Source: Undaria pinnatifida (Eukaryota > Sar > Phaeophyceae > Laminariales > Alariaceae). From it: 64,000 nucleotides of DNA. Positions 2,963-61,800 of this stretch are shown here, one piece after another. Where the stretch lies: contig JABAKD010000010.1 in assembly GCA_012845835.1 (NCBI GenBank), positions 16,407,355 through 16,471,354 of the forward strand. Reading direction: 5' to 3'. Position 1 is the stretch's first letter, and each line of letters opens with the position of its first letter. Below the pieces are notes generated by a model. It ran no database searches. It was not told the origin of the DNA and worked only from the letters and a program-made list of their open reading frames with translations. Position numbers and translations under genes: made by a program.

Positions 2963-3315
2963 AATACACTCCAGCTGTGATGAGATCGAAGCCTTTGTCG
3001 AAACTCATCTGTGCAAGCTGTGCGTGATACTCCGATACCACAGACACATTTTTGTAAAATAAAATTACGCTCCAGCTGTGAGATCGAAAATTTTGGTCGA
3101 AACTCATCTTTGCAAGCTGTGTGTGATACTCCGATCGCGTATTTTACTGGGTGTGTGTCCTCATTAACGATATAGGTCGGCGACTCCCCTTGGCACTAAA
3201 AGACAGTGTAGCCTGTACGCCAACAGGGTGATGTTCGTCAGTCTGTGCTAGGAAATTATAAAAACCGTTTTCGAGGGGGACAAAACCTGACAGCTGTGGA
3301 AGGAAAATGCATCAG
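2963..3315 (+). repeat. Dispersed CAGCTGTGAG repeat, one partial and one fuller copy in tandem
   Basis: First partial unit at 2963-3040, second at 3055-3315 ending GACAGCTGTGGAAGG. Confidence 0.7.
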
Positions 3316-18568: not shown

Positions 18569-18800
18569 TGAGTAGTGAGACGTATGCACCGGCCTGGACC
18601 TGGCACATCGTAGACTGACTTCCGATTTCACTTTTATATGTTTCTGGTGGAGGCATGAATTGCGTCAGCTGTGATATATGTGTGTACCACCTTGGGTTGT
18701 GTGTGTTTTTCCCTGGGGTATTCCTCAGCTCCAGAGTGACTGGAGCCTGTCTTGTGACCACGGACTTGATTATGCGAGTTAATGTGAGAACAACAACAAC
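18569..18800 (+). repeat. Dispersed repeat, copy 2, right part
   Basis: Matches 6376-6620, from GTAGTGAGACGTAT through CCAGAGTGACTGGAGCCTGTC to an AAC triplet run. Confidence 0.75.
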
Positions 18801-35879: not shown

Positions 35880-36560
35880 TGCACAGGGCTGGGCAGGGGA
35901 GGGCAGGGGAGGGTAGGGCAGGGCAAGGCAGAACCGGACAGGACAGGACAAGACAGGACAGGACAGGGCAGGACCGGACAGGACCGAACAAGACAGGACA
36001 GGACAGGACAGGACAGGACAGGACAGGACAGGACAGGACAGGACAGGACAGGACAGGACAGGACAGGACAGGACAGGACAGGACAAGACAGTACAGTACA
36101 GTACAGTACAGTACAGTACAGTACAGTACAGTACAGTACAGTACAGTACAGTACAGTACAGTACAGTACAGTACAGTACAGTACAGTACAGGACTGCCAA
36201 GCCGTTCTTCCCGCGCAATAGAGCACGCCAACCGAGCCATCAAACAAGGAGGACGAACGAGTACCACCCTCTACCTAGAGCGTCGACGCCGGCGTCTGTC
36301 AGAGTCAGCTGACCTTTGTTTATTTCTAGGGTCCCCCACAGTACAGTACAGTACAGTACAGTACAGTACAGTACAGTACAGTACAGTACAGTACAGTACA
36401 GTACAGGACTGCCAAGCCGTTCTTCCCGCGCAATAGAGCACGCCAACCGAGCCATCAAACAAGGAGGACGAACGAGTACCACCCTCTACCTAGAGCGTCG
36501 ACGCCGGCGTCTGTCAGAGTCAGCTGACCTTTGTTTATTTCTAGGGTCCCCCACGAGAAA
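35880..36560 (+). repeat. Pentanucleotide arrays GGACA and GTACA with a duplicated 150-bp flank
   Basis: GGACA units (about 35935-36085) change to GTACA units (36087-36190). A 150-bp unique block follows, then a second GTACA array (36340-36405) and a second copy of the same block (36406-36555). The long open frames here are products of the repeat. Confidence 0.9.
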
Positions 36561-37631: not shown

Positions 37632-37898
37632 TTAGCGCTTTCCCCCTGCAGAAGCAGAGCTGGTCGTGACCAGCCCGAGGGTCTCTACGCCCACTTGGCT
37701 TAGACCGCACGTGACGCAGACCGTGCCCTTCGCGCTCGGCTGGTACGCGGAGCCGCAGTAGGGGCACTTGCAGGAGGGGGAGCCCCGGTAGATGGGCTTG
37801 AGTGCCTCGCAGTCCACCTCGAAAGGGTTTCGCTCGTCGTAGTCGAGGGTGTGTTCGTTGCGCGCCATCTGCTGGGACTTTTGCAAGACCTTCTGGGC
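37632..37898 (-). CDS. COPA: COPA last exon: C-terminus with CX2C pairs, and stop
   Basis: Eighty-eight residues then TAA (37632-37634). Contains [22 protein letters not shown], the family's NPF...PIYRG block, then [10 protein letters not shown] and [10 protein letters not shown], two CX2C pairs that could form a zinc ribbon, and ends SASAGGKR. Acceptor CACCAG. No clear AATAAA is visible just downstream. Confidence 0.97.
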   Translation of the reverse strand, partial: AQKVLQKSQQMARNEHTLDYDERNPFEVDCEALKPIYRGSPSCKCPYCGSAYQPSAKGTVCVTCGLSQVGVETLGLVTTSSASAGGKR

Positions 37899-40800
37899 CT
37901 GGTGTGTGGTGGTGGTGTGGTGGGGGTGGTGGGGGTGATGTTGGTGGTGATAATGACCGACGAGAGCGAGGCAGGGGTGTGTGGCATAGAGGTAAACCAT
38001 CAATCACTACAGTACGAGAACATCGAAACACGTGCGTTCGAGAACAACAAAAAAGGTACGACAGCGACAAAAAAGGTACGTTAACAATAAAAATGTACGA
38101 GAACGGTGTGAGGGGAGTACTGGCACCGGTAACGTAGCAGGACTTGACAAATTTTTAACATGGCTATGACGACCTCAAATTGCCACGGTCCAACAAAACA
38201 CAACGGGAACAGCTTTACCGGACGGAGGCCTCTTTGATTGGACGTGAGGGAGCCAAGGGATTTCCCAATGGGTGAGAGGGGGGGACGAACTTAGCGCAGG
38301 CATTTCTTCTTGGATGGGCGGGGGGGGGGAGGGCACCTTGGTTCGGAGATCCGCGTGACGTTCACTGGAGAGATCCGGCAGCTCCAGTAGGCGCTGCGCG
38401 AAGCTGGCCGCGGTGATGTAGTTCTTGCCCTTAAAGGCAGACGCCATGGCCATGCGGAGGGCTAGCAGCAAGTGCGCGGGCTGGAGGTTGCAGCAGGTGA
38501 AATACGCCAACAGCTCCATGTTCCGCACCTGTAGACATTATATCGTTCGACGGGCGAGGCGTCATAAGCCAGCAGGGACGGGGGACAGCAAATTACGGAG
38601 GACGGCGGTGAGGTGGGAAGACAAAGATCGGCAGAGGATGACGTGGGAGGGGTTGAAAACAACAGTCGCGTCAACCCTCTTCGACAACTGAGAGGCAAAA
38701 CCATTACAGCACCGGCCACTCCTTGGTTGGGGTTAGACAACGAAATTTTTGGTGTGTGAACTAGAATGCAAGGATTCGTACCCATACCGGCGCAGCACGA
38801 TCCTACTCGAGCTGCTGCTCCGCGCTCACAATAAGTACTACTGTACCTAAAGGCGGCCGAGGACACCGAATAAATCACACCCCCCACAGACCATGATCTA
38901 GGCCATCTAGATCATCCACAGTACACCCCGTATCTGCCGTTACGATATGTTACGCTGGATCTGCATCTATCTAGCACAGATCCAACCCAGTAAACGTGCG
39001 CTAGACCACGCAGATCGCACGGCTCCCACAGGGTAACATGAGCTAGATCATACAGATCATACAGATCTTCCCTTAAATATCTAAATCATCAAGTAGGGGT
39101 CGATCATCTGGTGCGAAACTGGTCACTAGTTGCCTTGTACCCCCGGCGGCTCGCTCATGTCATACTTGTGTCGCAAAAAAAATAAACGGTATCTACCTCC
39201 CTGTGTCCCCGTCCTCCGGGGCCCACTCACCACATCTGCTGTCTCCGCCACAGCTGCCTTAATCCGAATAGCAGTCACGTACTCGCGGCAGATGGACAGC
39301 AGCTGAAGGTACCAACAGGGAAATATTGAGAAGAGGGTGGTAAAGGAGAGCAGGCAGGGGGGGGGTAAGGGAGGCGAAGAATTTTGGGAGGAGGGAGGTA
39401 GAGGGGAGGCGAGAGGGAGGGGAGGGAAGCGGAGGGGAGAGGGGTTCAAACGACAAAGTCAGGGTGTGATGAGGACCGGGTTGGCGTGGGAGCCGCAGCA
39501 GTGCAGGCCAAAAAGGCAGGGACACCGCCCCCCCCCGAACAATAGCCAACAAGCACACGCGTGCGCTACCAGGTATAGTACATACCAGGTACCTGAAGTA
39601 GGTTTTGAGAGTACATATGCAAATTTGAAGCAGATCCGCAAAATAAAAAAGGCTCCTGTTGGTAAAAACCATGGCGAAATTCGGAAGATTCGCTGAAAAG
39701 AAAACTGCATCGAATGGTGGGTGAAATCCCTACCCCATTTTTGTCCCACCCACCTCCTTGAGCTCGTTCCCCTCAGCTCGCGTCTCCCCCACGACGAGCG
39801 GCACAGCCCTGAGGATAAAGTCGAACTCCTGCCGAGAGCCGGCGAAGTTTCCCATGGTGAAGGCCTTGTAAGCTGCCTTCAGGCGCTCCAGCAGAGCGGA
39901 GGCCTTCAGGGAGATCGCAGGGAGGGAGTTCTAGAGAAATAACACAAAAAACAAAAACAAACAATGGCGGTACGTACATAGCGGGAGGGCGAAGAGCGGG
40001 CGCACGCGTTTGGTCGGGGGGGGGGTAAGATGAGAAACAATAATAGTAAAATCGAGTCGTGTTCATCGCGAGCTTAGAAACAAAGTCTTGTAAGTGGCCT
40101 TCAGGTGATCCATAAGAGCGAAGGCTTTCAGGGAGATGGCGGGGAGGGAGTTCTAGAAAAGTAATGCACAAAAACACATTAAAAAAAAAACGTTATGTAT
40201 AGCGGGAGGGCGGGAACAGGGGGCGTGGGCGGGCGAGCGGGCGGAGGGAGTAACATAAGAGCGAAACAAATCAGGGGAGGACTCTCGGTTCGACCACAAA
40301 TGCTTTGAAAAACTGTGAGGCATATACATCGTGAGTTTCACAAGCTTCGGAAACACAGGCTCCAATCACTCTTAAAAATGAGGAGTGCAAGACTACATCA
40401 GGAAATTAAATATATATATTAATATACTAGTATATTTTCATTTTATATAATATTATATATATATCGACATCACCCCAATCACCCCCAACCCCGTCAGTCA
40501 CCTTCTCCGGGTTCTTCTCGGAGGCGTTTCTCTGAAGGTAAGATCTCATGCTCGGGAGGGCATTCAGACCGGGGATGGACGCCAGCGTCCCCGTGTGCAC
40601 CGCCAAGAAGTGCGCCCTCAGAGGCTCGAAGTTCACCACCGCGATTTGGCGGTTCAGCAGCTGCATCGCCCCCTGTTGCGCCAAAACAGAGATAATTGTT
40701 ACGTTAAAAAAATAAATTACGTACGGGAAACTACGGACGTTCAGGATTTAGGGTTGCGTACTGGTACGCGAAAATACGGCAAATACCGGGGAAGAGTCAG

Positions 40801-43800
40801 CCCTAACCCCGGTGGGGGACGAATCGTATGCACCCCCGCAGAATATGAAGGTCTCCAACGAGATATTGAAGCCTTTTTCGTGGCGAGTAGGGGATACATT
40901 ACCTTGCGGCATTTTTTCAGTTCACGTACGGCTAACATTGATCCTGGTAATTACGCATAACCAAGCACCAGGTACCAGTTAACAACCAGCGCTGAACAAC
41001 ACCCAATGGCAAAAAAAAACAAGCAGAACGCAACACAGAAAAAAAAAACAGGATGCCAAAGGAAGGGACAAGGCGACCGCGGGGAGTCCAAAGAAAACAC
41101 ACGTGCCAGTCAGCACACCACATTTATAGCCGAGTAGTGGGCATCCACACGAGCGGGCCAGAAGCATAATCAATTCTGAGCATTAGCCTTTAGTGACTGT
41201 GACTAACGGGATACATGAACATTCTTAATCTTGGAACCGAGGACGTATCAGAATACTGAAAGCTGCAACGTAAAACCGATACGCTGTGGCCAGGTATACG
41301 TGATTGATGTGTCGAATTTGATGTACAGCGAGCATGACACAGCTATAAAGCCACGAAGCCCTCTCCATTCACGAAAAACCAACGCTAAATTCATTGATGA
41401 AGTAAGTGGCCAGATCATTTACTTCCCATACACGTTCCTAGATGCAAAGGGAACCGGCCAATCCTAAGCCATATGCAAAGGAAGACGGCAACGCTAAATA
41501 TACGCCTGGTACGATTACCGTATACGATACAAGATAACACCCACAAAATATACCACACCCCACAGAATACAACACCCGGTGGTATTTTTAGTCTCCAACA
41601 AGGGGGCGAATTATCACCCAGGTTACATAAGATAACACCCCCCCTGAGGTAACGCCGCATGTATTCACCGGGCCCCTGCTACTCTCACCCAGGTGGTACT
41701 GCATTATGTCGTGTTATCACACACAACACACTCCTTTGTGTGCCGGGTACCACCCCGTACGGAGACCTCCAACATGAACGTGGAAGGAGAACAGAATCCC
41801 GCCGGTACCTCCGCTCCTTCGACAGCTGCTTCGACAGCTTCGACCGCAGCAATGCGGCAGAAGCAAAATTTACAAGCAGTTTTATCACCCCCCCACAATA
41901 CCACACCCCTGCAGGTGTGCGGCAGCAGCAATTATTTACAGGCAGTGCCATCACCCCCCCTTTTATCACACCCCCTGCATGGCCCTTGCGACCTGCGCTT
42001 CATCACCCGGGCTACACAAGATACCACACCCCCTACAGAATACAACACCCGTTGATATTTTTTTGAACTCCAAAATGTCATCACCGGGGTGTGTTCTCTT
42101 GTGCCGTATACGGTAGCCCTTTTGCGGCCCAAAAACCGCGATAAAAAAAATCAAGATGTACGATACCTCACCACCCGTCGATTCATAGTGTGAGAGCGCA
42201 GCAGGACGAGCGTGTCATGCTGCGCGAGTGTCGTATAACTGGTTGGGTTGATTGTACAGCAGTACATCGGACCGTAAACTCACCACCCCCAAGCCTGCAG
42301 CCCGCCGTGCCTTTTGTGGTCGGTGCTGTGATCGTCAAATTAATTCCGTCATTGTGTGCCTCTGAAAGTCCCAAAAGGGCTAAAACATGTAGCATACTTG
42401 ACGTTTTTACTTGAAAGCAATGTTGCATTTTTTTTCCTGCAAAAAGGGCACTCGCCTGGAAGTCCCCTGCTGCTACGTGATCGGCCGCATGCGAAGAGTT
42501 CTCCACCCACAGCGTCGGCAAAGCGCGACCTGCCGGGGGCATGGCAAAGTCCGCCAAATCCGACGGAGCCGACTTGCCCCGCGCCGCCCCCCCGCCGTCT
42601 GCGAGGCCAAGCCAAGCCAGATCAAACAAGACCCGGCAAGGTCATGAGAGATTGACAAGGACGAGGATAGCATTCACAAAAACATTAGAAAATGCGGCAA
42701 AATGTGATAGAAAACACGGGTGAGAGCTAGGGGCGCCACCCGCCGGGTACCCGCCACGAACGGTTACCTGCCAAATTCTAGAGGTCGGACTCGGACTCGC
42801 CACCGGGTAACCCTTTTTCACGGGGCCGGAGCCGGGTCCACCGGGTACCCGGACAACATATGGTCCTGTTTACGGTCGTCAAGCGGGCCTGACAAGTGGA
42901 TCGTAGGCGTATTTCGATGGCATTTAGCGGGAGAACTACAAGCGTCAAACCGCACCCGCCTTTGCCTTCTAACGCAGGATCCTCCCTTCGTCTTAGATTG
43001 AATGAGCGTTGCTATTGGAAATTCTCTTCGTCGAGGGGTCAACTCTAAACAATCCCGGTCGCGTTGTAGCCCACTATCCCGGAACACTAGGTATGTATGT
43101 ATGCATGCTTTACATCAAGCGTTGTGCTTGTTGGACTGGGTCGTTTCTTTCGTGTTTGAAAGGTGTCCGGAGGTATTGTCAGGCATGTTGATCACGGGGA
43201 CACGTTGTCAAACGGGTACCCGGGTACCGGTACTCGGGTACCCGGCCCGATAGATGCTCATGATCATGGACGGCCGTCGTAGCTGCATGCGTAATAGCTG
43301 GTAGGTAATGTGCGAGTGTTGCGCTGGATCGTTTTGCTGCGTGTTCGAAGGGTTTCTGGAGTTTATTGTCAGGAATGCGGACCACGGGGACACGTTGCTA
43401 CCCGGGTACCCGGCCCGGAAAACCCGGCGGGTTTTGGGTCGGACCCGGAGCCTGTGACGGGTAAACCCGCCGGGTACCCGGGTCCGACACGAACGGGTGG
43501 CACGCACCCCTAGTGAGAGCACGCTACACGTTCAGAAAAAATACCGCACGGCGCGCTTACGGCTACAGTAGACGTACTGCAGTAATGGCAAGGTGTAGCC
43601 GCAGGTAAGGTTCGCGACAGATAACAAGGACTGTTCCAATCCCCCACCCCCCCCACCCCCCCCACCCCCCTGCCCGCCTCCTTACACATCACCAACTCCC
43701 TCACTCTCTCTTCTCGAACCGAGCCAAACCAAGTCACTGTGTGAGCCAAACAATTCAAGGCAAGTATGTTCCAACCCCTCGTCCCCCTCCCCCGTCTCCC

Positions 43801-46800
43801 CCGTTCCATCTCCTCACCGTCCCCGAAGTCCAAGTCATCATCACCCAGGTCGAGGTCGTCGTCCTCGCCCCACCCCCCGCCTTCACCTGCCTCCTCCCCT
43901 CCCGCCGCTCCCCTGCCATTAGCAACTCCCATCCCGTCCCCTCCCCCCTCATCCTCGTCCAGATCAATATCCACGTCCCACTCTTCTCCCGTAGCCTCAT
44001 CACCCGGGGTGGCAGCGGCGGCAGCAGCAGCAGCGTCGGCCCCTAAGTCTCCTCCCTGCATCGGCCCCTTCGAGACCGCCAGGAGGGGCCAGTTGTCCGT
44101 GCGGACGATGGGTGTGGGGGGCTGGAGGAGCGCTGCGTCAGGTCGCGTCTGCGTGGGGCAGGAGGAGTGGGGTGGGCGCGGGGTGGGGGTTGGGGTCGGG
44201 GTATAGGGGAATGGGGGCGGGGGTGGGGTGGGATTGGGTGGGGGGTTGGGTGGGGGGCAAGGGGGAACATTACATAAAATAGAACGTCGAACAAAAGAAA
44301 ATATTTCAAAAAGAAACTATTCCAAAAACAGAAAATATTGAAAAAAAAAAATTGTACGTGTACAAAACACAAATATCGGGGAGCACTATTAATAGGTACC
44401 TCCGGGACGGGCATCCCCTGCGCCTCAAGAAGCTCCCTCAGTCTCGCCGCGTCTTCCTCCAACCCGTGTGTCGCGGCCGTCAGGTAGGCCAGAGAGATCT
44501 AACACATGAGGTGGGGGGGGGGGGGGGGGGCAGGGGGACAGAAACAACGCCAAGGGGAGAAACCGTTGTCACACATTCAATCTTCATTTGACGTGACTTT
44601 CGTTGTAGAAACCTTGTCGAAGGAGACGGTTGGCGTAAGAACCGTCGACACCTCCCCCACTTGTCCAGTGGACTCTACCAGCGCCATCCGCTCCGCCGTG
44701 TTTCCTAGCAAGAGGGCGTTGTGAAAGTGCTACCCCCTCCTACCCCCTCCTACCCCCTCCTACACCCCCGTCGCCTCACTCCTCCCCTCCCCAGCTCCAT
44801 GACGTGAGTACCCCCCTGCCCCCACCTCGCCCCAACCCCTCCCATCTCCCCCCCTTTAGCTCCACGACATGAGTACCCCCCCTCTTCCCTCCCCCCGCCG
44901 CCGCCTCTCTGGTCGGTGAAAACCCGACGTGCTCCGCCCCGGCATTGTAGGGATGCGAGGGAATATGATATCAACACTGCGGCCACGCATGATACGAGAA
45001 ATGAGTGCCTCCGCGCCCCCCCCCCCCCCCCTCGCTCCCGCCCACCCGCACCTGTCCCGTGGACTCTAGCACCGCCATCCGCTCCGCCGCGTCACCCAGG
45101 AAGAGTGCGTTGTGAAAGCGCGACATCACGTCGCCGCGGCGCTCGGCGATTTTGTGCATCTTGCGTAGCTTGTCCGTGTTCCCGGTCAGCAGGTAGAGGA
45201 ACGACAGCCGCTCGAAGTTCTTCGTGCGCTGGTATGCCATCTCGACCACCTACGCGAGGAATATCAAAACGAGGACAACAACACAAGCACACATTGCACA
45301 GAGTATCATGAGTTTAAATCGTCTACGAGCAGATACGGCGTTTCGGCCACCTGAGCGTAGGATATCCATTCACACACTGGAAATATCACCACACGTTATC
45401 ATTTACGAGCAGTAGGTCGTCTATGAGCAGGACAACGGGCAGGAGGTAGAAGAACGACAGCTGCTTGAAGATATTCGCAAGCTGGTAGCTGGTAGGCCAT
45501 CTCGACCACCTTTGCACGGATGGTGAAAAAAATGTTGCTTTGACAACCGAGTTAAAATTAACACTTTTCAATGAAATCATACCCGGTTACAAAGTATCAG
45601 GTACGCGCAAGTGCGGTACGACCGATGACAATGGAAAGCCGATAGTTTGACCAAAAAGTTTGCAAACTTTTTTTGGGGGTTATTTGCTGAAAGATTCTGG
45701 GTAACGTCGCTATGGGAAAAAAATGACTAAAGTGTTTTCCTCTGGCTCTTTCTTGGGTCACGTGGTCCAACAAATCAATTTGTCTATTTTTCATCAAGCC
45801 TTGATTAACACTGCCCACCAAACGCGATTGACTTCCGATCTCGAGATAGAGACAACCCATGGTCACTACTCTTCGTTCCGGACAAGGCCACATGACTGTA
45901 GGTGACAGCGCTGAAGAGTTCATCTCGATCCATGCCTAAAGGCGTGAGAGGTTGCTTGTGTTGTCTTGTGGTACTCCGTCCCATCTTCTCAAAATTCTGT
46001 TTTTCGCCCGTGGGGAGACGACAGAGAGTTTTTGTCTCAGCATTCTACACACCAGCCGCCAAACGTGTTTTTAACAGAAGCCTCATCGGCGCCCGCCACA
46101 AACCACCGGCCGTAGAGTGGGCGCTGTACACCAAGGGGGGGTCGGAGCCCCTAACGAGCTTGCCACGTTCAGAGTTCACGATGCTGTCGTTGATTTCGTC
46201 GAACAAAGTCTGTGGAGAACACGAAATTGCGCCGCGTCTAATCCAAGATCTGCTTGAGAATTTCTCAGGCCGATGTTGGCCAAGATCGCCGCGAGAAATC
46301 GTTTTTTTCCGGAATTCTGGAAAGTTTCAAAAAAGAATTCTACCAAATTGGATCCGAAGGCGAGACCGTTCAGGCAAAGTTTGGCTGGGATCTTCGAGAA
46401 TTTCAAACTTTTGGCCTTCAATTGTCATCGGTCTAATCCCAACCGCTTTAAAACTGCATAAACCTTTTTGGTGAAAAACTAACTGAAATTAGTGTGCGAT
46501 CATCTCTGCAGTTACACCATAAACGGGTTAAGCGTCATTTATTATACCTATCCGCCGGGGGATAAAGAGAAAAACAAATAAAAACAAAAATACACGAAAT
46601 ACAACCACTCGCACCATCGGACAAACAAAAACACGTACACCATTTATATCTGCCGAGGAGGTGGAGAAGCGCCAACCGCTTCAAGACTTTCGTGCGCTGG
46701 TACCCCATCTCGATCACCTGTTGGACACATCAGGATCTATCAAAGACTATTCAACAGATCATCTGCCTACAGGTAGATCCTATCTTTTGGTCGTGACGAG

Positions 46801-49800
46801 ATGCCGCACCTGGTGGTTTCCCTGCCTAAGAGCCTCGGTTCCAAGCTGCTGCCAGATGGAGTCGTCCGGCAGCTTCTCCGCCGTATGCATGGCCACCTCG
46901 ATGTTGCCGCAGGCCAGGGCCAGCCGGAACTTCGTCTGCAAAAACATAAAACATCGCCAGACGAACACAAGGGGATCAACATACAGCACAGCAGTCGACG
47001 GGAAATCGGGCAGCAGCCAACACCAACACCAACAACAACAACACCGCCGACACCACCAACATCACCAAACAAAAAACCATCGCCCCCACCCCCATCCCCA
47101 CCTCACCCACCCAAAACCGAATTTTTTGTCACTGACAAAGTGCATGTGAACCTCCGGGGATCTCTTCTCCCGCAGGTAATAGACGATCGGCTGTCTGCAT
47201 AATATCATCAACACCATTAAACAAACACCACCCCCGCCATCACCAACACCATCACCACCATCATCTCCATCTCCATCAACAGCACCCCCCCCCCCCCCCG
47301 CGCCCCGCCTGCGTACCTTGTTGTCGCTGACGAAGTGCAGAGCAACCTCCGGGAATCCCTTCTCCTGCAGGTAAGAGATGATCGACTGCCCACACAACCG
47401 GCTGTGGCGCACCATGTGCATGACCTCTCCGTACTTCTTGTCCTCCAGGGCAAGCTTGAACAAAGCCTAAAGACAGAGATCATAACACAAGGTAATACAG
47501 CTTTGTTAAAAACAGGTACAAGCACACAGATACAATCATATCGCGCCCCTCTTGCGCAAAACAACAATTACCAACTCCCCTCAAAATAAGAAATAATTAA
47601 TCACAATACATTACATTATCCCCCATAGCAGGTACATATTTTCGTTAATAAAGTTGTTTTAAATACGTCAGCTGCGAGTTTGACAACAAAAAAAAATGTA
47701 TAACTGTGAACCAGGTAACAGATACCGGTACCTGGTAAGTACTACTGTAGAAACAGGTAGGTATGCGTATGATATGCTATATGCAAGTGCTAAATTATAT
47801 TTTTTTGTTTACATGTCGGCCCATGAGCGCCAGTTAAAGACCAATCTATTTTTTCCGTTCCTTTGATTTCTCCTCATTCTTCATCTTCGTCACCTGCAGC
47901 GTAATCTTGGTATATCTGGTTTGCTAGCTGGTGTATGTTTCGCTGTCGTACCCAGTATATGTGGCAATGCATGGCCGAATCTCCCTACTCCAACTGCCAT
48001 GTATCAGGTATCAGGTATCAGGCATATCTGTCTAGTAGTTTGTTACCACAGAGCTTGTATCTCTTTAGCATGCCTCTCTGGTACAGCTAGATCATGCTAT
48101 ATAGGCACAGTAGTTTAGATTGATCCGAACTGACCTCCGTGTTGTCCATGTCGACTGTGCGAGTCTTCCCCTCTGTCGAGGACAAACATCATAAATATCC
48201 CGTACATAGATAGATAGACAAGATGGACAGATACTTCGAAGTAGACGTATACTTCTCGAGACAGATAGACAGGCAGGCAGGCAGGCAGGCAGGCAATTTA
48301 ACAAATCGTTGAGATCTGTTCCAACTGACCTCGGTGTTGTCCATGTCGACTGTGCGAGTCTTCCCCTCTGTCGAGGACAAACAACATAAATATCCCGTAC
48401 ATAGATAGACAAGACGGACAGATACTTCGAAGTAGACGTATACTTCTCGAGACAGATAGACAGGCAGGCAGGCAGGCAGGCAGGCAATTTAACAAATCGT
48501 TGAGATCTGTTCCAACTGACCTCGGTGTTGTCGATGTCGACGGTGCGAGTCTTCCCCTCCCTGTCCAGGCAAAACAGCTTCTTCCCCACGGTCTTGGTCA
48601 AGTACAAAGGCACGTCCAAAGTGCGGATGATACCCGTGTCTCCGTTCGGCAGTAGGTACTATAAGCAGAAGGGGGGGGGGGGGGGGGGGTACAGCGGGAG
48701 GGAAGCGGGTGGAGTTAGCCGACCGAACACAAGCCGAGGATGCCGCCCAAGGTGCTCAGACTGGTCACAATAGCTCACCACGACCACGACCACCACGACT
48801 ATGACTACCACGATCACCAAAACAACGACAGCAACATCAACAATGGGATCCGAAGGGTGCGCCAGCTAGCGTTGGGCTGCGAAAGCAACTGAGTTAAATC
48901 GACACACGACGCGTATGAAAATACGTGAAAGTGTGGTGAGCTAAAGCTTTATTGTTCCCCATCCGCCGGAGGATGGAAAAAAAAAAGAAAAAGACAGCAA
49001 CATCACAACCAACACCACAAACACCACCAACACCGCCAACACCAACACCATCATCCAATTTCTATTACACCACCATCACACCACATCCAACACCAACACC
49101 AACACCAACGACAACATCACCAACACTACCAACACCAGTAACAACAACGCCAGCAACAACACCAGCACCAACACCAACAGCAGCACCAACACCAACACCA
49201 ACACCAACAACAACAGAAAAACGAAAATCTCGGCAGCTGACCTTAATGTGGTTAAGGGTGGAGTAGACGAAGATGCGGTTGTTGACGTCCCAGGCTCCGC
49301 TCTTCACTCGCACCGTCTCCGACACCGTGGCGCTATGGGGCAGGGCAAGTCGGGGTCACGAAAAAGTCAACACGTCATAGTAAATCGAGGGCGTAGCGGA
49401 AACAGAACAACAGACAAACCAACAGCATAACTATTAATACAAACAAATGAAAAAACAGACGAAAGCTGAGACGAACAAAACCAGAGACAAACAACAGCAT
49501 AAACAACCAAAAAGCAGACTAGACAAACAAGCACGTCACCAAAAACACAACTAGAATACAAAAACACAAACACATAGCAACGAGTATCTATGAAGAAACA
49601 GAAAAGACAACAACCCCGGCGGCAACGACAACGACGAAAGCAATCATCCGGCACTTCCGCCTGGCGCCGTGCCCAAAATTCTGACGAACCCCCAACGCAC
49701 GGCCTAGCATGGCAACGCAAAACGATGCAACGACTCACAGCTGGTCGAGCTGCTTGGTCGCGATGACGACGGTGTGCTTGCTCGCCAGCGCCACGAGGCT

Positions 49801-52800
49801 GCAGTCATGGTTCCAGAACGTGTACTTCACGCGGGGGACCTAAGGAGGATGGCAGGCGGACAACAAACAGATGTAAAAAACAAGCAAGGATCGAGCATTA
49901 CAAAGCGGGGGGAAGTAAAACGCTTTCAGTTCCATCGCAGTCTCAAAAATCTTCTTCATATATCACAGACGGTTGGCCTTCCGGTTACGAGCGGTTGCGA
50001 ACGTGCGCTGAAACAATTTCTACGCGTTCCACCGCGCAATGCCAAAGATGCGTTCTCGCTCCCCCCTTCCATCTCCCCCCGCCCCACCACTCCCTCCCCT
50101 TTTCTCCCACCACGCCCCGTTCACCGCTCCCCCCCCCCCTCACCCCGTCCTCATTTCCCCTCTCCTGCCTCCCCCCGCAAAAACTCCCTACTTACCCTCC
50201 CACCCGTCCCCCCACCGCCTCCCCTCCCACCCAACCCAACCCCCCGACGACCCCCCCGTTCCCATCGCTCCCCTACCCAATCATGCCCCTCGGGGCACGT
50301 AAAAAAAACATATTCCCCCTCTCGCCCACATCCCGAGACCTTGCGTCTCTGTTGCTCGTACGTTGTCATCCGGTCACCCCCCCCACCCCCCCAATCCAAC
50401 CTGTCCACCCACCTGAAGCTCCGCCAAGACCTTGCGGCTCTGTTGCTCGTACAGCGTCATCCGGTCCTCGCAGCGCAGCAACAGCCGCCCCGAGGTCCCT
50501 CCGAAGTGCATCCCGTCCGTAGTCGGGTGGGGTGGGGTGCACTTCTTCGTCACCTCGTTAGAGAAGTTCTTGATCAGGATCTGGGAGGGATTGATGGAGG
50601 AGTGGGAGGTGGTGGTGGGGGGGGGGGGGGGGAGGATAATGGGGGGGGGGGTGACAGTGGGACGGAATAAGTTTCAGATCATCCCAGTGGCGTGATTGGG
50701 TACACGTGGGAGGGGACGGGGGGTGAACGGAACAATTTTTTTCGGTCCACATCAATCCACATCAACACGCCTCCTAGAGCGAACCACCCCATCCCCAACA
50801 CCTCTCCACCAGCTGGTCACCCCTCACTGGTCATCTCTCACCCCCCCCCCCCTTCCCCCTCCCCCCCCCCTTCCACACCCCCTTCCCTTCCCCTTTCCCA
50901 CATACCTGGCGGCTCTTGTCGAGCACCGCAAAGCGGTTGCGCGAAAGGAACACCGCGGCAAGGCAAGGCCCGCGGCGCATCTCATTAGGGTCCGCCCCAG
51001 CTCCGTTAGCACTCCCGTCCGTGCTGAAAAAGGTCATCAGCTCGTAGCACCCACCATCCGTGTCGTAGGTCACCTGTCCAGCGGAACGTAAAACGAGGGA
51101 CAGCGCAAAGGCTAACGTAATTGCAGGTATCGGGTAACAGCGGCGGGTGTGAAGCAATTATTCCTGTCATCGCGCTCAGCGCTGTTCAGTTGAAATCATG
51201 GTTGCCTAAGAACGTCATATCAAAACCCCCGCCCCCCCTACCCCCCCTCCTTCGATAATCAACAGCTCACCGTGCACCTCCAGCAAAATCCGAAAATATC
51301 AACACCAACACCACGCCCCCCCCCCACCACCCCCCCCCCCCCCCCCCCAACAGAAGCAAAGCCTGACACCGAACTCACCAGCGTGTTGCTCTCGACAGTG
51401 TTAAGCCCCACTTACACCCAGCCCCCCCCCCTCCCCCCCCCCCCCCCCAACCTGACATTCCCAATAACACACCACCACCCCCACCGCCACCCTTGAACCA
51501 CCGCTACCCCCCCCCCCACCCCCCACCCCCAACAGAAAACAAAGCCAAGCTACGCAATCACACCACTCGTACCCTCATCACCCCCCCCCCTCCCTCCTCC
51601 TCCCCCATCCCCACCCCCAACAGAGGCAAAGCCCTCACCGGCACGTTGCTTTCAGCAGGGTCGACTCCGCAGCCCAATCCTAACTACCACTACCCCCACC
51701 TCCACCTCCGACATAATCCCCCATCACCACCGCCACCACCACCACTACCAACAAGCCCTAGCCATCCCACCACCACCACTACCGCCATCAGCGCCACCAA
51801 CACTACCAGAACACCCCCCCCAAAAAAAACAAACAATACCCGGCAAGGAACTGACCAGCACATTGCTCTCAGCAGGGTTGAAAGAGTTATGCTGGAGGCT
51901 GCGCGGTCCCTGGCCCAAGCTCGCCCCTTGGCTCTGCCCCGGGCGGCGCATGCTGACGAGCGGGTGGTCTCTGCCAGTCTGCAGCTCGTGCACCCGTAGG
52001 TAGCGGTCACGCACGTACAGAAGACGCGACCCTAATGGAAAAAAAAATGGACAGGGAATGGGAATGGGGAGGAAGGGAGGAAAGGTGGGGGGGGGGGGGC
52101 ATCGTAAGGCGGTGCGGTGCAGACGGCAAGGTGTTGCGGCAGCGCCGTTTGCAGTTTTTTCTTTTCGTTTTTCATTGTTGTGTTGGGAATTAGCAAAAAA
52201 CAATCTCCACCTCCAGCTCTATCTTCATTTACACCTCCACCCGCCCCTTCATGTCCCCCATCTCGTATCTCCATCGTTCACCGTGGGTGTCGTAGGCCGG
52301 CCTTTCCCTTTCGAGCTTGAACACGATCATCCCGCTGTCGTGGCCGGCCGCCAGCAGGTTCTGCTCCGGGTGAGCCGCGAGGATCCAGAAGCGGTCATTC
52401 TCCCTGCGGAACGTCTGAACGCCCATGCGCTGGCTGATGTCCCACACCTGTTGATACAGCAGTCGTGAACCCGCGTTAGTGCGGTACCCTTTAGTGCGGG
52501 GTCCCAACTTAGTGCGGTCAAAATCGCTTATCACGAGCTTGTCCTACACAAAAGCCCCGCGTTATTGCGATACTGTCTAGTGCAGGGTCCCAGCTTAGTG
52601 CGGTCTAAATCGCTCATCACGACCTCGTCCTACAGAGTACAGCACCAAGCCCCGCGTTAGTGGGGTACCCTTTAGTGCGGGGTCCCAGCTTAGTGCGGTC
52701 AAAACAGCTGATCACGACCTCGCCCTACAACAAAATCCTGCCTTAGCGCGATACTTTCTAGTGCGGGGTGCCAGCTTAGTGCGGTGAAAATTCAAAATAT

Positions 52801-55800
52801 CACGACCTCGTCTACAGAGGACAGCACCAAGCCCCGCGTTAGTGCGGTACTTTCAAGTGCGGGGCCCTATCTTAGTGCGGTGAAAAATCGCTTATCATGA
52901 CCTCGTCCTACAGCGCACCGCACCATTTAGGGATAGTTCGATGCCCCACTCTAGGACGAGTATCATCTTCGACTTATGCATTGCACTAATGAGGAACTAT
53001 GATAAGTGCCACGCGCTCGCGCAGCGAGCGACCGGGGCGCACGATAAAAGCGTTGACAAGCAAACAAGCCCGGAACAAAAAACTGTCGCCGAACCGCACC
53101 CGCCGACGAAGCACCGTCTACAAAACACGATCTACACAGCACCGCTGTCTACACAGCATCGCCGTACGAACCCCCTTCACCCCCGCCCGAACCCTTCCCC
53201 AGCCCCCCCCAACCCCCTTCTCCCCAACTCCACCCTCCCCCTCCACCGCCCCACCCCTACCCTCCACCCCCCCATCCTCCCGCCCGCGACCCCCTCTTCT
53301 CCCCGTCCCCCCCTTCGAAAGCCGAGCGTAGGCGGGGGAGGGCTTTCCTCGGGTGGTTACATATAATGTCTCCTCACCCGGATGGCGCGGTCCTCGCTGT
53401 TGCTCACGATCAGCTCGCGCTTAGGGTGGAAGATGACGCACGAGACGTTGTTGGTGTGTCCCGTCATCGTGTGCACCTCCCACGCCTTAGTCTCGTTCAT
53501 GCGCCACAGCTTCACCTGCACGGAGGGGGTTGGAAAACCACAGGCGGGATGAATAAGGGGGGGGTAGGACAAGCGGAATGTTTAGATGGGGGTCGGAAAA
53601 CAATAGTCGGGATGGATAGGGGGGGCGGGGGGGTCATCGTGTGCACCTCCCACGCCTTAGCCTCGTTCATGGGCCAGTCACCGGGAGTTGGGGGGGAGGG
53701 CACAGGCGGGATGAATAGGGGGGAAGGGTATAAAAACACAGGCGGGATGTATATAGGGGCAAAAAGGGGAAGCAGCAGGTTTGAGGGAAGGGGGGGGGGG
53801 GGGTTGTGCGTTACACGGAAATCAAGGCACACCATTCGGCATGAAGCAGCGAAGCACCAACCAGCAGAACCCGCCCACACCATGTCCTATATACAATAAA
53901 ACCAGCTATTATATCGTGTGCCTCGAAGGTGAAAAAAATAAATGTCTCGAATTAGTATGAACTATCGAAAACATTCGGACACAGCAGCTTAAAAAAGCAG
54001 AAATCGCAAACCGCGACCAAGATCGACTCGAAAAGCATGCATGTCCTCCCGCCCCGCCCTATCGTCTGCTTCGAAAAATATCCATGCGGGTTTACCGGAA
54101 TGAATAATGATATCGTTGTTGTATGCCATAAATAGCTCCCTTCTCCATCCCGAATAAAAACAAACACCAAAGGATGGTACCTGGCGGTGGTCCAACAACA
54201 AAAAGAGCACAACAAAAACAAAAACGAAAAACGGTATAATACGAGCATATATCTGACAGCTATTCGCTCCGGAGATGAGCGGCAGCGTCCGCTGGAAGCT
54301 ATAGTGAGTAGCCCAGTTCACACGCCTTTATTTACCCATCACTATTAATATTAAAAAACAACAAAGCAAAAAAGCACACACACCAGATACCAGGTACCCG
54401 ATTCAAGAGCCCCATGGAACAGGACCGTTCTAATCTCCGTATAGGTCTTATCTTAGGTTCAGCATCGTACAAACAATATTAACCCCTCTACTACAACTGG
54501 AAACCCGTCTTGGGGGAAAAATTACTTGGAATTAGTATAAGCAGTAGTATAAGCCGGGAGGCTTGGGGCTCTATAGCGGTCAATAGTTAATAGGATGCTG
54601 GCGACTTCCAACATTTATTGGGTTGGGAAAAATGAAAAACAGTGTTAAAACCGACGAACACCATGTTAACCCAAGGTCAACCAGCCCACCAAAAAAAAAA
54701 GACAGAAAAAAAGAAGGTATTACAGGAACACGTATCTCTGGCCGACTCTTTCGCTGTTTTTTTCGTGGGTTGGGGTGGCCTCGTCTTGTGACTTTCGACG
54801 GTTTCAATACTGCTATTAATAAGTGTCTGCCAGTGGCGTGAGCGCGCAGCAGTAAGAGTAGGGTCATGCTGCGCCCGTCCCGTGCGATAATTTGCGTTGT
54901 TGTCGTTCGGACACCAGTTTTATCGTCGCTAACCAGCGATCGCCCACGCATAAATCGTCGTTGTTTCGTCATTTTTCCTTCGCGGAAGTCTCAAAGGGAT
55001 CAATATAATAGTACCAAAATGCCCTGCGTGTGCCGTATACCTCCTACCGCTACGCTTTCAATACACTACTGCAGTAAACACACACCCCCTCTATACCCGG
55101 CGTGTCCCGGGCTCATTCGTGTGGCGGATTCTGGAATCGTCAAGAAAAAACAATCAGTGTTTTTGCGCAGGTGGGACCACGTCTCGAGGGAGCGTCGGAT
55201 CGGAACAAGGCGACCTGACAAACCTCCTGACCCCACCTGACCCGTCCCATGACATTTCGATCACCTCCTAACCCGAGCCGACTCGAGGCCCCACTGAGTT
55301 CTTGAAAACCTCATGACCCGACCCGCGGGCCCGGTCATGACCCGTGAAAAACCCGGGTTTTTTTCGCTATTTTTCTTCCCTCTGAAGCCCCAAAGAGATT
55401 AACCCCGTTAGAGCCCCAATATCCTTCCCTATACTAACTTCAAGTAATTTAGTAAAAAAAAAGGGTTTCCAGTTGTACAGGCTTTTAAACGGGGTATACC
55501 ACGGTATAGCATTACCTGACGGTCGTCCGCTCCAGAGATGACGAGCGGCAGCGTCGGGTGGAAGCTAGCCCAGTTGACGCCCCTGTCGTGCCCCTCCAAC
55601 ACGTACTTCACCACGGCGTCGGTTCCCCCGAACAGGTCGGAGTTGACCCGCGAAACCATGTCGTCGTGTGGCTGCTATACACCGAAACGAACGAACGAGC
55701 GGCGGCATATTATAAAACGGATACATTTCCCTCCACAGCTGTCAGAATTTGTCCCTATCAGAAACGGGTTTTATAGTTTCCGCGCACAGACTGACTAACA

Positions 55801-58800
55801 TCACCCTGTTGACCCTGATAGCTACACTGTAGTTGTAAGGGGAGTCGCCGACCTATATCCTTAATGAGGACACACAACCCGTGATACGCGCGATCGGAGT
55901 ATCACACACAGCTTGCAAAGATGAGTTTCGACAAAATCTTCGATCTTACAGCTGGAGTGTATTTTCATTTTTTATAATACGGATACATATGATATATGTT
56001 CGATCTCACAGCTGTTGCGTACTTTAACTTTTCGTAATACTGTACCGGTCGTATATTATTAGATGGCTACATATTTAATATCAAAAAAATAGTGTAAGGC
56101 GGTTTCATGTTACAGGACCGAGACATATTACAAGACGGTTACATAAAATGGTTACCTGTTGCTTGACCCGAACAGGTCGGAGTTGACCCGCGAAACCATA
56201 ATCGTCGCGTTGCTATATACCGAAAAGACAGGGTTGCGCAAAAGTCGGGGCGCATACCAAACATCCAGGTGGTTTGTGCACGCGAACGGAAAGCAGACAA
56301 GTAGACAGACAAGTGGGGGCGGGGAGAGAGAGAGCGAGAGAGGGGGGGAGGGAGGGAGCCCCCCCCCCCCCCCCCCGCTCCCTCATCTTCGAAACAAGAA
56401 CCTTTCAGCCTGCTCCCAACTTGCCCTGAGCCTGATTCATACATATATATACTGCCTCCGCTCACCATCGCCGACGGTGCTCCACGGACGGTCTTCTTCC
56501 TAAGCCCTGTCGTGTCCCACACGCGTACCGTTTGGTCTAGCGACGCTGACACCACTAGGTCGTCCTGCAGCGACGACATTTGATGGACCAAAACGACGGA
56601 TATGAGTACAACAAGGCACTAACACGTGACAGATCAGATGGCTGTACAGATGACTGCACACATCACAGTCCGTTTTCATGGATCTGCAATTTTTCACGGA
56701 CCTGCGTCACCAGTACGTCTGATCTAGCGACGCCGACACCACAAGGTCGTCCTGCAGCCATGATACGAAGCATTAGATGGAACATGAAGAGGGGGACGAG
56801 GTACGCGGAAAAGAGCAATTGCTTGTGTTCAGAAAATATTCAAACTCGCACATATCAGATCAATTTACAGATCATATCACTGTACATATCAGATCGCTGA
56901 ACAGATAACACAGATAACACAGATCACTCTCACAGATATGCATCATCTGTACTCTACATAGCGACGCCCGACAGCACCAGGTCGTCCTGCCGTCGTGAGG
57001 ATGGATGGAACAAGACGAAGGAGATGAGGCACGAAGCGGAAAAGGCCTTTTGTTGTTTAGAAACCCTCGCACCCCGGACAGATCACGTCGAATAGATCAG
57101 ATGACACAGAGGTCACACATCGAACAGATTGTACAGATGACACACAAATTACGGATCTGCGTCATCTTTGCGTTTTGGTCATGTTGGTCGATTCGAGTCG
57201 GGTCGGATCATGGGCGGATCGAAGTATCCATTGGTGGATCTGCATCAACTACACGTTTTACCTATATAGCGACAACGACACCACAAGGTCGTCCTGCCGC
57301 CGTGGAGGTAGAACAAGACGGCACACGAGTCACAAGGAACACTATTGCACGAGTCGGACAGCATCAAATCCCTGCACAGATCACCCAGATGATCTTCACC
57401 GATCTGCACTAGCTGAACGTCTGATCTATTTAGCGATGCCGACACCACACGGTCGTTCTGTCGTCATGGGGATGGGCGGAAGAAGACGAGGGAGACCAGC
57501 ATTTCCTTAAAATAAACTAACCCGAAGGGCTTCGTACGCTTGCTAGATTCAGTTCCTCCACCTTCGCCACCCCGATACTCCGTAAAACACGATTGACCAT
57601 CACGGCAACCACTACGAACACTGTCGTTTTCGTGCCGACTCGTCACAAGTCCTCGCCCTACGCTCTTCTTGGGGGTAGGGAGCTCCAAGGGTCGCTACCG
57701 AATGGTGTTTGCTGATTTAAATTCGCTTGGCGATTTCTTCGTACAAATGGGCTGTTGTTCCATTTCATAATCGTCAGTTAGCATCCTCACCAACAAGCGA
57801 ACCGCAATTTGGCAAGGACGCTAGCCGATCATTATGAAATGGAACAACCGCCCATTCTGTGCGGAAAAATGGCCAAGTGAACACAAATCAGGCATACCAT
57901 TCAGCGGCGACACCCAAACCCCCCCACCCTCAAGAAGAACGTAAGACAGGCACTTACCACGCAGGGCACCAGACGCATGCTGCGGTAGCGTTGGTTGCAC
58001 CTAAATATTTCTGAAACCCTTCACTTGAGCATCCATCTCCACAGGGTGTTTGCGACTTTCAAATTTCTGTTGGGGTTGAAAATACATTATATTAGCCTCG
58101 TCGACGGCTGATGTTACACCATTTTTCATACTAATACTAGTATTGAAACCGACGAACGTCATGACCAAGGCCAACCAACCCACGAAAAAATGGTTAGAAA
58201 AAAAAGAAAAAAAACGGTACGAAGCAAAAACTTATTTCTAACAAAACAGTTTTTTGCCAATTTTTCGTGGGTTGGGTTGGGTTGGGTTGGCGTTGGATTG
58301 TGACTTTCGACGGTGTCAAAACTATTAATAGTGCAATATGCTTTCCTACACAACTCCTACCCAACCAAGGTTGGCATCTTGCAAAAACACGCTTACATCT
58401 CAACCGAATTCCGATTTTGGGAATAAATGAAAAGCCATACCCGATTAACAATCCAATGGCCTAAGCACCCCCACATAGGGACTAAATGAAAAGCCATACC
58501 CGATTAACAACTTCATGGCCTACAGTATGTACCCCGCGAAATTGCATAAAATGACGTCAAAAATCACCAAAAACGGGCCAAAAACGAACTCAAGACTCAG
58601 TTAAAAAACTTGCCAAAACGCCCCCCGCAGTAAAAACCCCACTGGAATTCCAAAGACACTCTTCTCGATTGAGGACCCCCGCCAATCAGCTTTGTTTGGG
58701 CCAAAAAGTGCTATAACCCCTAGATGTTTTTTCTTCTTCTGTTTTTTATCCTCCGGGGCATGGGGAAAACTAAAAGTTAAGCTCAGCACACTTCCACAAA

Positions 58801-61800
58801 TTTTCATACATCTCGTGTGTCAATTTAACTCTATTGCACCCGCAATCCAGCGCAAGCTGGCGTGTCCTCCAATTCCCGTGGTAGCGACAGCGCGACGTCA
58901 CCGACACTACTCCAGCAGCGCTGGCAACACAAGCTAAACCAGGCGGGTCATATACAGATCAGGGATCCGTCTATCGTGAAAAACATACCGGGAAACATGA
59001 AAAGGGAGCTGGCATGTCTCATGGGCGGATAGTTCCGTCTAACGCACAAGTACAGAGTGGCGCAACAGGGATGCTAGCGACTTATCACGAAACAATGTAT
59101 ACTTTCGGGTTCGAATCCTCTCTAGCCAGCAGTCTCCGGGGCGAGCCCTTCACCACGTATATATCATCATGGCATCTACAGTACAGGAGCACATTTGTAT
59201 TCTATATTTTCAATCATCCCATGTACCAGTAGTTCATACGAGAGGTTGGTGTCGTGAACGAAAAGAGGATGGCGTGAATGATATCTGGTACCTGGTATAT
59301 ATGTGATGCGATGCGAAATAATCCATGTACTTATATTTATCATCACTTTCACTTTCCAGCTCAGCTCGTGGAAGGTTTTACTCTCCGCCCCCTTCTGGAC
59401 ATGCCGTGGTCACAGGTGTCTTTCTCCCCCTCCCCCCGGTACTTGCCGTCACTTTCAGCTTGCATAGGGGTCAGCATTCCCTCTACTCAAACTCGTCGAT
59501 TTTGCATCGAAATTTGCTAACTTACTCTTTCGCACTTTGTGTTGTGGATACATACGATATTATACCTGTTTTTCACATGTCACGATAATAAACACTTCAC
59601 GCACAGGATATCACCTCATTATCTTTCGAGAGCCATCCATGCCGCTGTGTTCCCCCCCCCCCCCCCGCCTCGAACGCCCCCTTCTTCCCCATCACCCGCA
59701 CCATCGCCTAGACCTAGCACCACACGTATAACAAACCCCTCACCTAAAGCCCTTCCCCCCCCCCCCCCCCCCCCCCCACCTCCCCCCCAACCCATCCCGC
59801 CCCCACCCCCTCGAACACTCCACCCTCTCTTTACTCACTGATTGTACGACTTACCCCAGGATATACATGATAAACTGATGTATTATTTCCAAAACCGTCA
59901 CATTTATCCCCTCAAAATAATGTATAGTTTCCAGGCACATATTGAGCTCCCCCCCCCCCCCGCCCCAACCCCCCCCCCCGCCCCCAATAATATACTGGTG
60001 CCAAAACCGTCAGATTTATCCCCCTCGAAAGGATTTATTGCTTACATGCACAAATTGCCCCCTTTCCCCCCCCCCCCCCCCCCTCCAAACCCGCTCGCTT
60101 TTGATCAAAACCAGGCCCCCACGTCCTTCAAAACTCCGCCCCACCCCCCTCACCGGTTGTTCGACTTACAAGATTCACTTGATTCGACTTACAAGATTCA
60201 CTTGATAAAAGGATACATTTCCCTTCACAGCTGTCAGATTTTGTCCCCCTCAGAAACGGGTTTTATAGTTTCCGCGCACAGACTAACTAAAATCACCCTG
60301 TTGACCCTGATAGCTACACTGCAGTTGTAAGGGGAGTCGCCGACCTATATCCTTAATGAGGACACACAACTCGTAATGCGCGCGATCGGAGTATCACACA
60401 CAGCTTGCAAAGATGAGTTTCGACGAAATCTTCGATCTCACAGCTGGAGTGTATTTTCATTTTTTATAATAAATAAGGTATATCACATCATGCAGCACCG
60501 CCTCTCTAGTAATAAACCTGGCCACTGACCCTGGCTACATTTCTTATTTTTAGACAGGGTGTACCCCAACCTAACTCTACAATAAACGCTTCCGAATTTC
60601 TTGGTTTTGCATAAATCTCAGGCTGATTTGTCTTGCGGGGCTCTTTCTCACGGGGGCGCTGTATGTATTAATAGTGTATATAGAGGAAATCATACCTGTA
60701 CCTGGCATCACAAATCACAACGTGAATATCAGACGTATCTCATGGTATATCACGATTCTTGATGTAGATATATCGACCTCCACATTTTACCTTGGGATGG
60801 AAGTTTTTTTTTCTCTTCTTTTCTTTACCTGGCGTCGGACAAATCACATGATATATCAGGACTTTTGATAACAGATACCCATCTCTACCACATGGTACTA
60901 CGTGCATGGGGTGGAACATATCACATGATGTAGCAGACACAAAAAAAATGATATATATCAGACATATCATATGGAATCTCAGGATTCTTCCATGATATGT
61001 ATACCGATCTCTATCCCTTACCTTGGGATGGAAGGCCGCGCACATGACGTAGTGGTTGTGGCCGGTCAGAACCGCGATGCAGGTGCGGCTCTGCCAGTTC
61101 CAGATGCGGATCGTCTGCAAAGACAACAAAAACACACACAAGGAAACAAACATTGACGTTGACGTTGACGTTTTGACTTTTGTTTGTATTTTAGCCTCCA
61201 GCGGATGGGAAAAAATAACGCTCAAGCTCACCACAGCAGTGCCACAAATTTCCATACATGTCGTGTGCCAATTTAGCTCAACAAATCGACATTCGAACGC
61301 GTCAAGCGGCAACATCGAGTGCATATCATACGGTGCAGCAGCAACGCAAAAAACAAAGAGACAGATGGGTGTACCTCCTTCGAAACCTGAGAGGAAACCA
61401 TTATCAAAAAGTACTGGCGATTAAAGCACCGGCGACGAAGCATCCAGGGGAACTGGTGGCGTAGGGTTAGGCGTGTGTCGAAAACGGAAAACGTGGTCAT
61501 GGCAGAAATGCGGGGAGCATGCTGGACTTTGTACTGTTGCGCGATCTTCTCGTCGACGCTTGAAAGTACCACCCGTTTTGGGTGTTGCCATATATGCAAC
61601 ACATGGAGTTGGGAGACATGCGGGGAGCATTCTGGACCTCGTACAGCTGCACGCTCTTTCCCTAGACGCTTGCAAGCACCACCCGTTTTTTTTTTGTTTC
61701 GCTTTACATGGGTTGCAGTGACAATATTAGCTTGGAAAAGTCGGCGAAAGCGGTGCATTGAACAACGCAAATGTAGGGAGACATTGTAGAGTGGAGGTAT

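Follow-up and report, generated by a model that had tools for sequence, protein, structure and literature searches.

Partial copies of exon ends in the introns of the Undaria pinnatifida coatomer alpha gene, best read as decayed tandem duplications

The coatomer alpha gene and its exon-end echoes

The window analysed here is a stretch of 64,000 nucleotides from contig JABAKD010000010.1 of Undaria pinnatifida, and positions are given within it. It contains COPA, the coatomer alpha gene, on the minus strand (37632..62768), with the 5′ end of the gene outside the window. The gene model comprises 23 visible exons and 22 introns (20 with GT-AG and two with GC-AG splice sites) and has a clean, single reading frame of 1177 codons plus the stop; the product aligns to PDB coatomer alpha entries (9qpq_D, 5a1u_C) over query residues 1-1165. 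The span given with the original prediction, 38337..61114, is too short for the gene on both sides, since it runs from 37632 to at least 62768. A dispersed element of ~80 bp recurs in several introns within the window, and identical tandem pairs also exist there (e.g., 36123-36554). A search of a phage collection gave no match.

The introns of COPA had been predicted to carry worn copies of neighboring exon ends, and all 13 items (14 intervals) were found again, to about 30 bases. These echoes lie in introns 2, 3, 4, 7, 9, 12, 13, 14, 15, and 19, which bears out the claim that at least 10 of the 22 introns contain them. Alignment gave 27 rows with a score ≥14, from which 18 copies at 12 junctions were counted; the nine remaining rows (scores 14-17, and 25 and 15 for exon 17) were set aside as chance or low-complexity matches. 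The self-alignment of exons against introns that had been suggested as a check was performed at all 44 exon-intron junctions with 500 dinucleotide shuffles each, giving a floor of p≤0.002. In the direct orientation, 11/44 junctions reached this floor and 12/44 had p<0.05 (the twelfth at p=0.016); in the inverted control the floor was reached by 1/44, with 3 junctions below p=0.01 and 5 below p=0.05. At a score ≥25, exons matched an adjacent intron in 10/44 direct and 1/44 inverted pairs, and a non-adjacent intron in 3/462 direct and 1/462 inverted pairs; the low-complexity exon 17 was involved in all five control matches (one adjacent inverted, three plus one non-adjacent). Across the window, pairs within 1 kb at E≤1e-4 numbered 46 direct and 4 inverted, and three repeats with a block-shuffled window returned none in either orientation. 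The inverted, non-adjacent, and shuffled controls rule out base composition as the cause. Collectively, these results confirm that the exon-end echoes in COPA introns are real.

All echoes are on the minus strand, like the gene. The donor end of exon 2 (61022-61114) recurs in intron 2 at 60787..60803 (17/17 bases, p=0.016, offset 231), with collinear intronic homology of 87/119. Intron 2 also holds four acceptor-end echoes of exon 3 (56708-56763, 56959-56990, 57267-57300, and 57407-57460), with AG retained in 4/4; the junction value of p≤0.002 was obtained with the best of the four copies. Exon 4 is echoed at both ends, by an acceptor-end copy in intron 3 (56158..56224; 59/66 identical, p≤0.002, AG kept, offset 538) and by a donor-end copy in intron 4 (54244..54327; 62/74 identical, p≤0.002, offset 1257) whose donor dinucleotide is now AT. 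An acceptor-end echo of exon 5 follows in intron 4 (53633..53676; 42/44 identical, p≤0.002, offset 170). Intron 7 contains two donor-end echoes of exon 7 (51627-51664 and 51371-51402; scores 22 and 18), both with GT kept, and the junction p≤0.002 refers to the better copy only. These two (51627 and 51371, in C-rich surroundings) and the exon 2 donor echo (60787-60803) are the weakest of the set. The donor-end echo of exon 9 lies in intron 9 (50333..50375; 38/43 identical, p≤0.002, offset 91). Sequence alignment and the junction test identified two donor-end echoes of exon 12 with intronic flank in intron 12 (48113..48383), which form a tandem array with units of ~191-195 bp; a donor-end echo of exon 13 in intron 13 (47123..47202; offset 195); and an acceptor-end echo of exon 20 with intronic flank in intron 19 (40082..40248; unit 222 bp). 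Exon 15 has two acceptor-end echoes in intron 14, the first at 45436..45520 (65/78 identical, offset ~253-260) and the second at 46656..46719 (50/64 identical, offset 1468), both with AG kept, and a donor-end echo in intron 15 (44651..44733; 69/83 identical, p≤0.002, GT kept, offset 391).

Tandem structure and decay of the copies

Exonic and intronic parts were compared in 13 of the 18 copies, with exons 3, 7, and 12 each represented by a single copy. A head-to-tail arrangement, in which unit length equals copy offset, was evident in 6/13 echoes. Homology covered 165/188 bp of the unit for exon 3, the entire 170-bp unit for exon 5 (170/170), 209/217 bp for exon 7, 192/193 bp for exon 12, 189/195 bp for exon 13, and 221/222 bp for exon 20; for the other seven it was partial or no longer resolvable. 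The intronic part alone exceeded all 200 shuffles in 5/13 echoes (exons 2, 5, 12, 13, and 20). It was not above the shuffles in the other 8/13, where the evidence for a tandem structure is the similarity of the exon and splice site. Six young, near-perfect tandems have breakpoint overhangs of 0, 1, 2, 6, 8, and -24 bp, too few to indicate a mechanism.

Splice dinucleotides, codon positions, and frame were scored in 17 of the 18 copies, with exon 2 left out. The splice dinucleotide lay within the alignment in 14/17, showing that homology crosses the splice site into the intron. Mismatches between exon and echo at codon positions 1, 2, and 3 were 40/286, 29/291, and 62/285 (p=0.001), or 10% at the second and 22% at the third position. 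Over the 13 echoes, mismatch was 100/701 (14.3%) in exonic and 243/1036 (23.5%) in intronic sequence, and 95/647 (14.7%) and 242/900 (26.9%), respectively, without exon 12. Of the 12 echoes having any intronic alignment, 10 were more similar to their source in the exonic than in the intronic part. The order is reversed for exon 12 (90.7% exonic, 99.3% intronic) and slightly so for the exon 4 donor (83.3% and 87.0%, the latter from only 23 intronic bases). The five echoes of a Fisher test were chosen after these identities had been seen; neither exon 12 nor exon 2, with its 13 exonic bases, is among them. The pattern of decay is the one expected when one copy is under constraint and the other is free. 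The reading that suits the echoes best is head-to-tail tandem duplication across a splice site, with decay that has probably been neutral.

Placement of the duplications and competing readings

The duplication process is not confined to COPA; six chaperonin genes and other stretches of the genome show it. Among the chaperonin exon cores (39 of 57 matches, those within the six genes), 11/39 direct and 2/39 inverted reached a score ≥20; the contrast is smaller at a score ≥18 (13/39 versus 7/39). Paralogy among the chaperonin genes raises the scores against the other five genes, and 7 of the 11 cores at ≥20 exceed even this inflated maximum while 4 do not. Nine of the 11 were aligned, those at offsets of 890 and 1833 bp being left out. 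In nine 10-kb stretches elsewhere, taken at round coordinates on 7 contigs and thus not a random choice, there were 8.2 direct versus 2.6 inverted pairs per 10 kb (74 versus 23 pairs); two stretches account for 17 of the 23 inverted pairs, and direct pairs are absent from one stretch. The density of local direct repeats in the chaperonin genes was 9.9 per 10 kb. The predicted general process of duplication at exon-intron junctions is upheld in one part, as short tandem duplication across junctions that lengthens introns is seen on other contigs too, in genes unrelated to COPA. Its tie to the junctions is not supported: direct repeats are similarly dense elsewhere (8.2 versus 7.5 per 10 kb in the window).

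Exon ends could also be copied into the adjoining intron by a mechanism directed at them or at splice junctions, such as one coupled to transcription or splicing. In its favor, 10/16 COPA repeat clusters touch an exon, compared with 25% expected by placement alone (p=0.0016). The exonic parts of the echoes are also short, at 13-81 nt, on average taking up roughly one third of the length available (mean rank 0.34, KS p=0.013, calculated from exon and unit lengths with one copy per junction). However, if exon-anchored copies remain visible twice as long, 40% of clusters are expected to touch an exon and the excess falls to p=0.058. In the chaperonin genes there is no clear excess (7/27, against 16% from placement, p=0.12, or 27% with visibility, p=0.63), purely intronic clusters do occur in COPA (6/16), and local direct repeats are about equally dense away from it. 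Several copies include intronic flank, which means that the template was DNA or unspliced RNA. Geometry and the longer visibility of exon-anchored copies nearly explain the junction bias. The duplication process need not target junctions, and targeting, which we consider improbable, becomes superfluous when placement and visibility are taken into account. No whole-exon echo was found in COPA, where ~5.5 were expected from placement, which suggests selection.

Another reading takes the echoes for mutually exclusive or otherwise alternative exons, or for the remains of duplicated whole exons. Splice dinucleotides are intact in 13 of the 14 mappable echoes, as such exons would have them. This is close to the ~11/14 that a hand estimate gives for neutral decay, and the pseudo-exons which the echoes had been suggested to seed are putative. 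Against this, no echo spans a whole exon, 9/17 copies contain a frameshifting gap (8/17 have none), and mismatch still amounts to 10% at codon position 2. Partial extent and frameshifts led us to reject mutually exclusive or vestigial whole exons, a reading that we regard as very unlikely. An assembly or haplotype artefact would account for identical tandem pairs such as that at 36123-36554, but divergence from the exon is ~5-25% in most of the 18 copies, which misassembly of one molecule does not yield, and the same picture is seen on other contigs; this can practically be discounted. Introners or other dispersed elements inserted with splice sites next to exons appear as improbable: the ~80-bp element does recur in several introns, but every echo matches its own neighboring exon, the non-adjacent direct pairs at score ≥25 (3/462) all involve low-complexity exon 17, and the exon 20 echo, compared with the whole 511-Mb assembly (the other echoes were compared with the window), returned, besides itself, only the adjoining copy among the best candidates listed.

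A proposed origin and its significance

We favor tandem duplication with unequal decay, at a probability of about 0.88: the echoes would be remnants of short head-to-tail duplications that arise widely in the genome, mostly at offsets of 50-500 bp. Where a duplication extends across a splice junction, one splice site and the full exon would remain in use by the gene, and the surplus exon end, left within a lengthened intron, would drift freely. With its exon copy under selection, such a pair would stay recognizable for roughly double the time of a pair in which both copies are intronic. Echoes would thus be found in introns because side-by-side duplication is frequent and the intronic copy may decay while the exon is kept intact. 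Duplications inside exons or over whole exons would mostly be purged, since they would alter the protein, and the exon 3 and exon 12 arrays would reflect further rounds. The direct orientation, the crossing of junctions, near whole-unit homology in 6/13 echoes, the pattern of decay, and the recurrence of all this in other genes and stretches are observed features. Break repair or replication slippage is the putative cause at the DNA level, selection probably filters out exon-altering duplications, and splicing presumably ignores the echoes.

Related events have been described. In a potato RdRp gene, a tandem duplication crosses an intron-exon boundary (PMC4974935); that case concerns one recent event in one gene that formed a new intron, whereas here many junctions in several genes carry mostly decayed copies that lengthened existing introns. 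Among the openly licensed matches listed, this geometry is already in print once, in that potato gene, and the distinctive feature here is density. Introns can also be gained when an exon segment containing AGGT is duplicated in tandem (Rogers 1989, Gao and Lynch 2009, and Hellsten 2011, as cited in PMC4974935). Extra splice sites likewise come from local tandem duplication in that model, but the segment is exonic, while the segment here crosses a junction already present and makes its intron longer. Tandem exon duplication leading to mutually exclusive exons (PMC9013439) also duplicates exon sequence locally within a gene; there, whole exons are reportedly chosen between in the transcript, in contrast to the partial, decaying, and presumably inert exon ends seen here. 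In human and mouse cells, break repair is reported to give rise to small tandem duplications (PMC8355091) that resemble the echoes in being short and head-to-tail, and for the echoes this route is putative. No genome-wide report of partial exon echoes or of intron growth by tandem duplication was among the openly licensed matches listed.

More tentatively, and with considerable doubt, short tandem duplication may be a main force lengthening introns in this lineage, with exon ends as a fossil clock of intron growth and splicing setting the limit, such that exonic parts below ~80 nt would be tolerated and longer ones recognized as exons and purged. Because one copy of each junction duplication would be frozen by selection, the echoes would form a datable record of intron growth for which a single genome suffices. 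The absence of whole-exon echoes and the shortness of the exonic parts could serve to gauge the selection that splicing exerts on new duplications, and the exon-like pieces in such introns may mislead gene prediction.

Exon-end copies in the introns of COPA

The model of the coatomer alpha gene (COPA), on the minus strand between 62768 and 37632, has 23 exons and 22 introns, and its 1177 codons and stop lie in a single open frame. Twenty introns are GT-AG; introns 1 and 18 are GC-AG, with GC donors at 62652 (exon 1) and 42456 (exon 18). Coatomer alpha chains were the top PDB matches and aligned over query residues 1–1165; because the alignment begins at chain residue 77, the 5' end of COPA lies outside the window. 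The assembly holding the window has 68 contigs and 511,146,479 bases.

The original prediction listed 13 items (14 intervals) of exon-end copies, all of which were recovered, and placed such copies in at least 10 of the 22 introns. From 27 rows with a score of at least 14, 18 decayed partial copies (echoes) were taken, at 12 junctions in 10 of the 22 introns. When all COPA exons were aligned with all introns, a score of 25 or higher was reached by 10 of 44 adjacent pairs as direct repeats and by one of 44 in the inverted orientation used as a control, compared with three direct and one inverted of 462 non-adjacent pairs. The five control matches (inverted and non-adjacent) all came from exon 17, which is acidic and of low complexity. 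The copies also stood out in a self-alignment against shuffled introns, as proposed with the prediction: with 500 dinucleotide-shuffled versions of the adjoining intron as the null, 11 of the 44 junctions reached the floor (p ≤ 0.002), and the exon 2 donor echo gave p = 0.016. Among the inverted controls, a single one (exon 17) was at the floor, and 5 of 44 had p < 0.05.

Other repeats were also seen. A decayed minisatellite at 52470–52925 (about five copies of ~86–95 bp units) fills about half of intron 5, and a dispersed element of ~70–80 bp, delineated partly by eye, occurs in several COPA introns (55918–55978, 60392–60476, 61898–61976, and 62522–62601) and inverted near the window start (2955–3135). 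A telomere-like interstitial array of ~17 ACCCTA hexamers lies at 6166–6265. At 36123–36554, adjoining ACAGT/GGACA simple repeats, a 215-bp unit is tandemly duplicated; its copies are identical, so the duplication is either young or an assembly effect. Among 10 open frames scanned, those at 17396–18664 and 30524–31399 gave Pfam matches under the curated cut-off, to RVT_1 (reverse transcriptase) and to GAG-pre-integrase plus integrase core, respectively, and judging by these domains are likely retroelement remnants.

Structure and decay of the copies

For 14 of 17 copies the alignment takes in the splice dinucleotide, with AG or GT retained in 13. Six of 13 echoes (exons 3, 5, 7, 12, 13, and 20) showed homology over nearly the full inter-copy distance, a sign of head-to-tail duplication. 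The intronic part by itself exceeded all 200 shuffles in five of the 13 (exons 2, 5, 12, 13, and 20) and did not do so for exons 3, 4, 7, 9, and 15. Whole-exon duplication with mutually exclusive use is at odds with the partial extent and lost frames of the copies, 9 of 17 of which contain a frameshifting gap.

If exons were under selection and echoes free, mismatch would be expected to be about twice as high in intronic as in exonic parts, and about twice as high at codon position 3 as at position 2. Over 13 echoes, mismatch was 14.3% in exonic (100/701) and 23.5% in intronic parts (243/1036), or 14.7% and 26.9% without exon 12. In five echoes that align at length in both their exonic and intronic parts (exons 3, 5, 7, 13, and 20), picked after the table was seen, the counts were 38/269 and 174/638 (Fisher p = 1.6e-5). 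Codon positions 1, 2, and 3 mismatched at 14.0, 10.0, and 21.8% (p = 0.001); both p-values are optimistic, since some exons contribute several non-independent copies. The exon 12 echo was the clear exception (identity 90.7% exonic, 99.3% intronic), most simply explained if the duplication is old and its echo, together with the intronic part, was copied again recently.

Possible junction targeting and selection

Clustering of COPA repeats blind to exon positions gave 16 clusters, 10 of which touch an exon. A model that places tolerated duplications at random expects this of 25% (p = 0.0016); allowing exon-anchored copies to stay visible twice as long raises the expectation to 40% (p = 0.058). 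In six chaperonin genes elsewhere in the genome, with exons known as profile matches only, 7 of 27 clusters touch an exon against 16% expected (p = 0.12), or 27% with visibility (p = 0.63). Junction targeting is not needed to explain these counts, and there may be a mild junction excess in COPA. Whole-exon echoes were absent from COPA against ~5.5 expected (p = 0.004), and exonic parts measured 13–81 nt, averaging about one-third of the available length (KS p = 0.013, from 12 junctions only). Both observations are consistent with selective removal of duplications that would insert a further exon or imitate one.

Origin and extent of the duplications

Breakpoint overhangs in six young, near-perfect tandems were 0–8 bp in five and −24 in one, compatible with end-joining or replication slippage. 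In human and mouse cells, break repair is described as producing small tandem duplications (PMC8355091), and COPA-type duplications may have an origin of this type. A duplication of the same geometry is described for one potato gene, where it created a new intron (PMC4974935); no genome-wide account of such echoes was found among the matches listed, in openly licensed papers. The unusual feature here is density, with 10 of 22 introns affected in one conserved gene.

Across the window, 46 direct pairs lay ≤1 kb apart at E ≤ 1e-4, versus 4 inverted, and block-shuffled sequence gave zero. Within 1.5 kb, there were 48 direct and 7 inverted pairs in the window, 71 and 3 in the chaperonin genes, and 74 and 23 in nine 10-kb stretches drawn from 7 contigs, each holding between 0 and 14 direct pairs; offsets were 50–500 bp in 160 of these 193 direct pairs. 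Chaperonin exon cores (profile matches) aligned to their own flanks at a score of at least 20 in 11 of 39 cases direct and 2 inverted, and at a score of at least 18 in 13 and 7. Homology extended beyond the profile-match end in 8 of 9 alignments, at putative AG or GT splice sites recognized by eye. In the sequence sampled, then, the duplication process is widespread.
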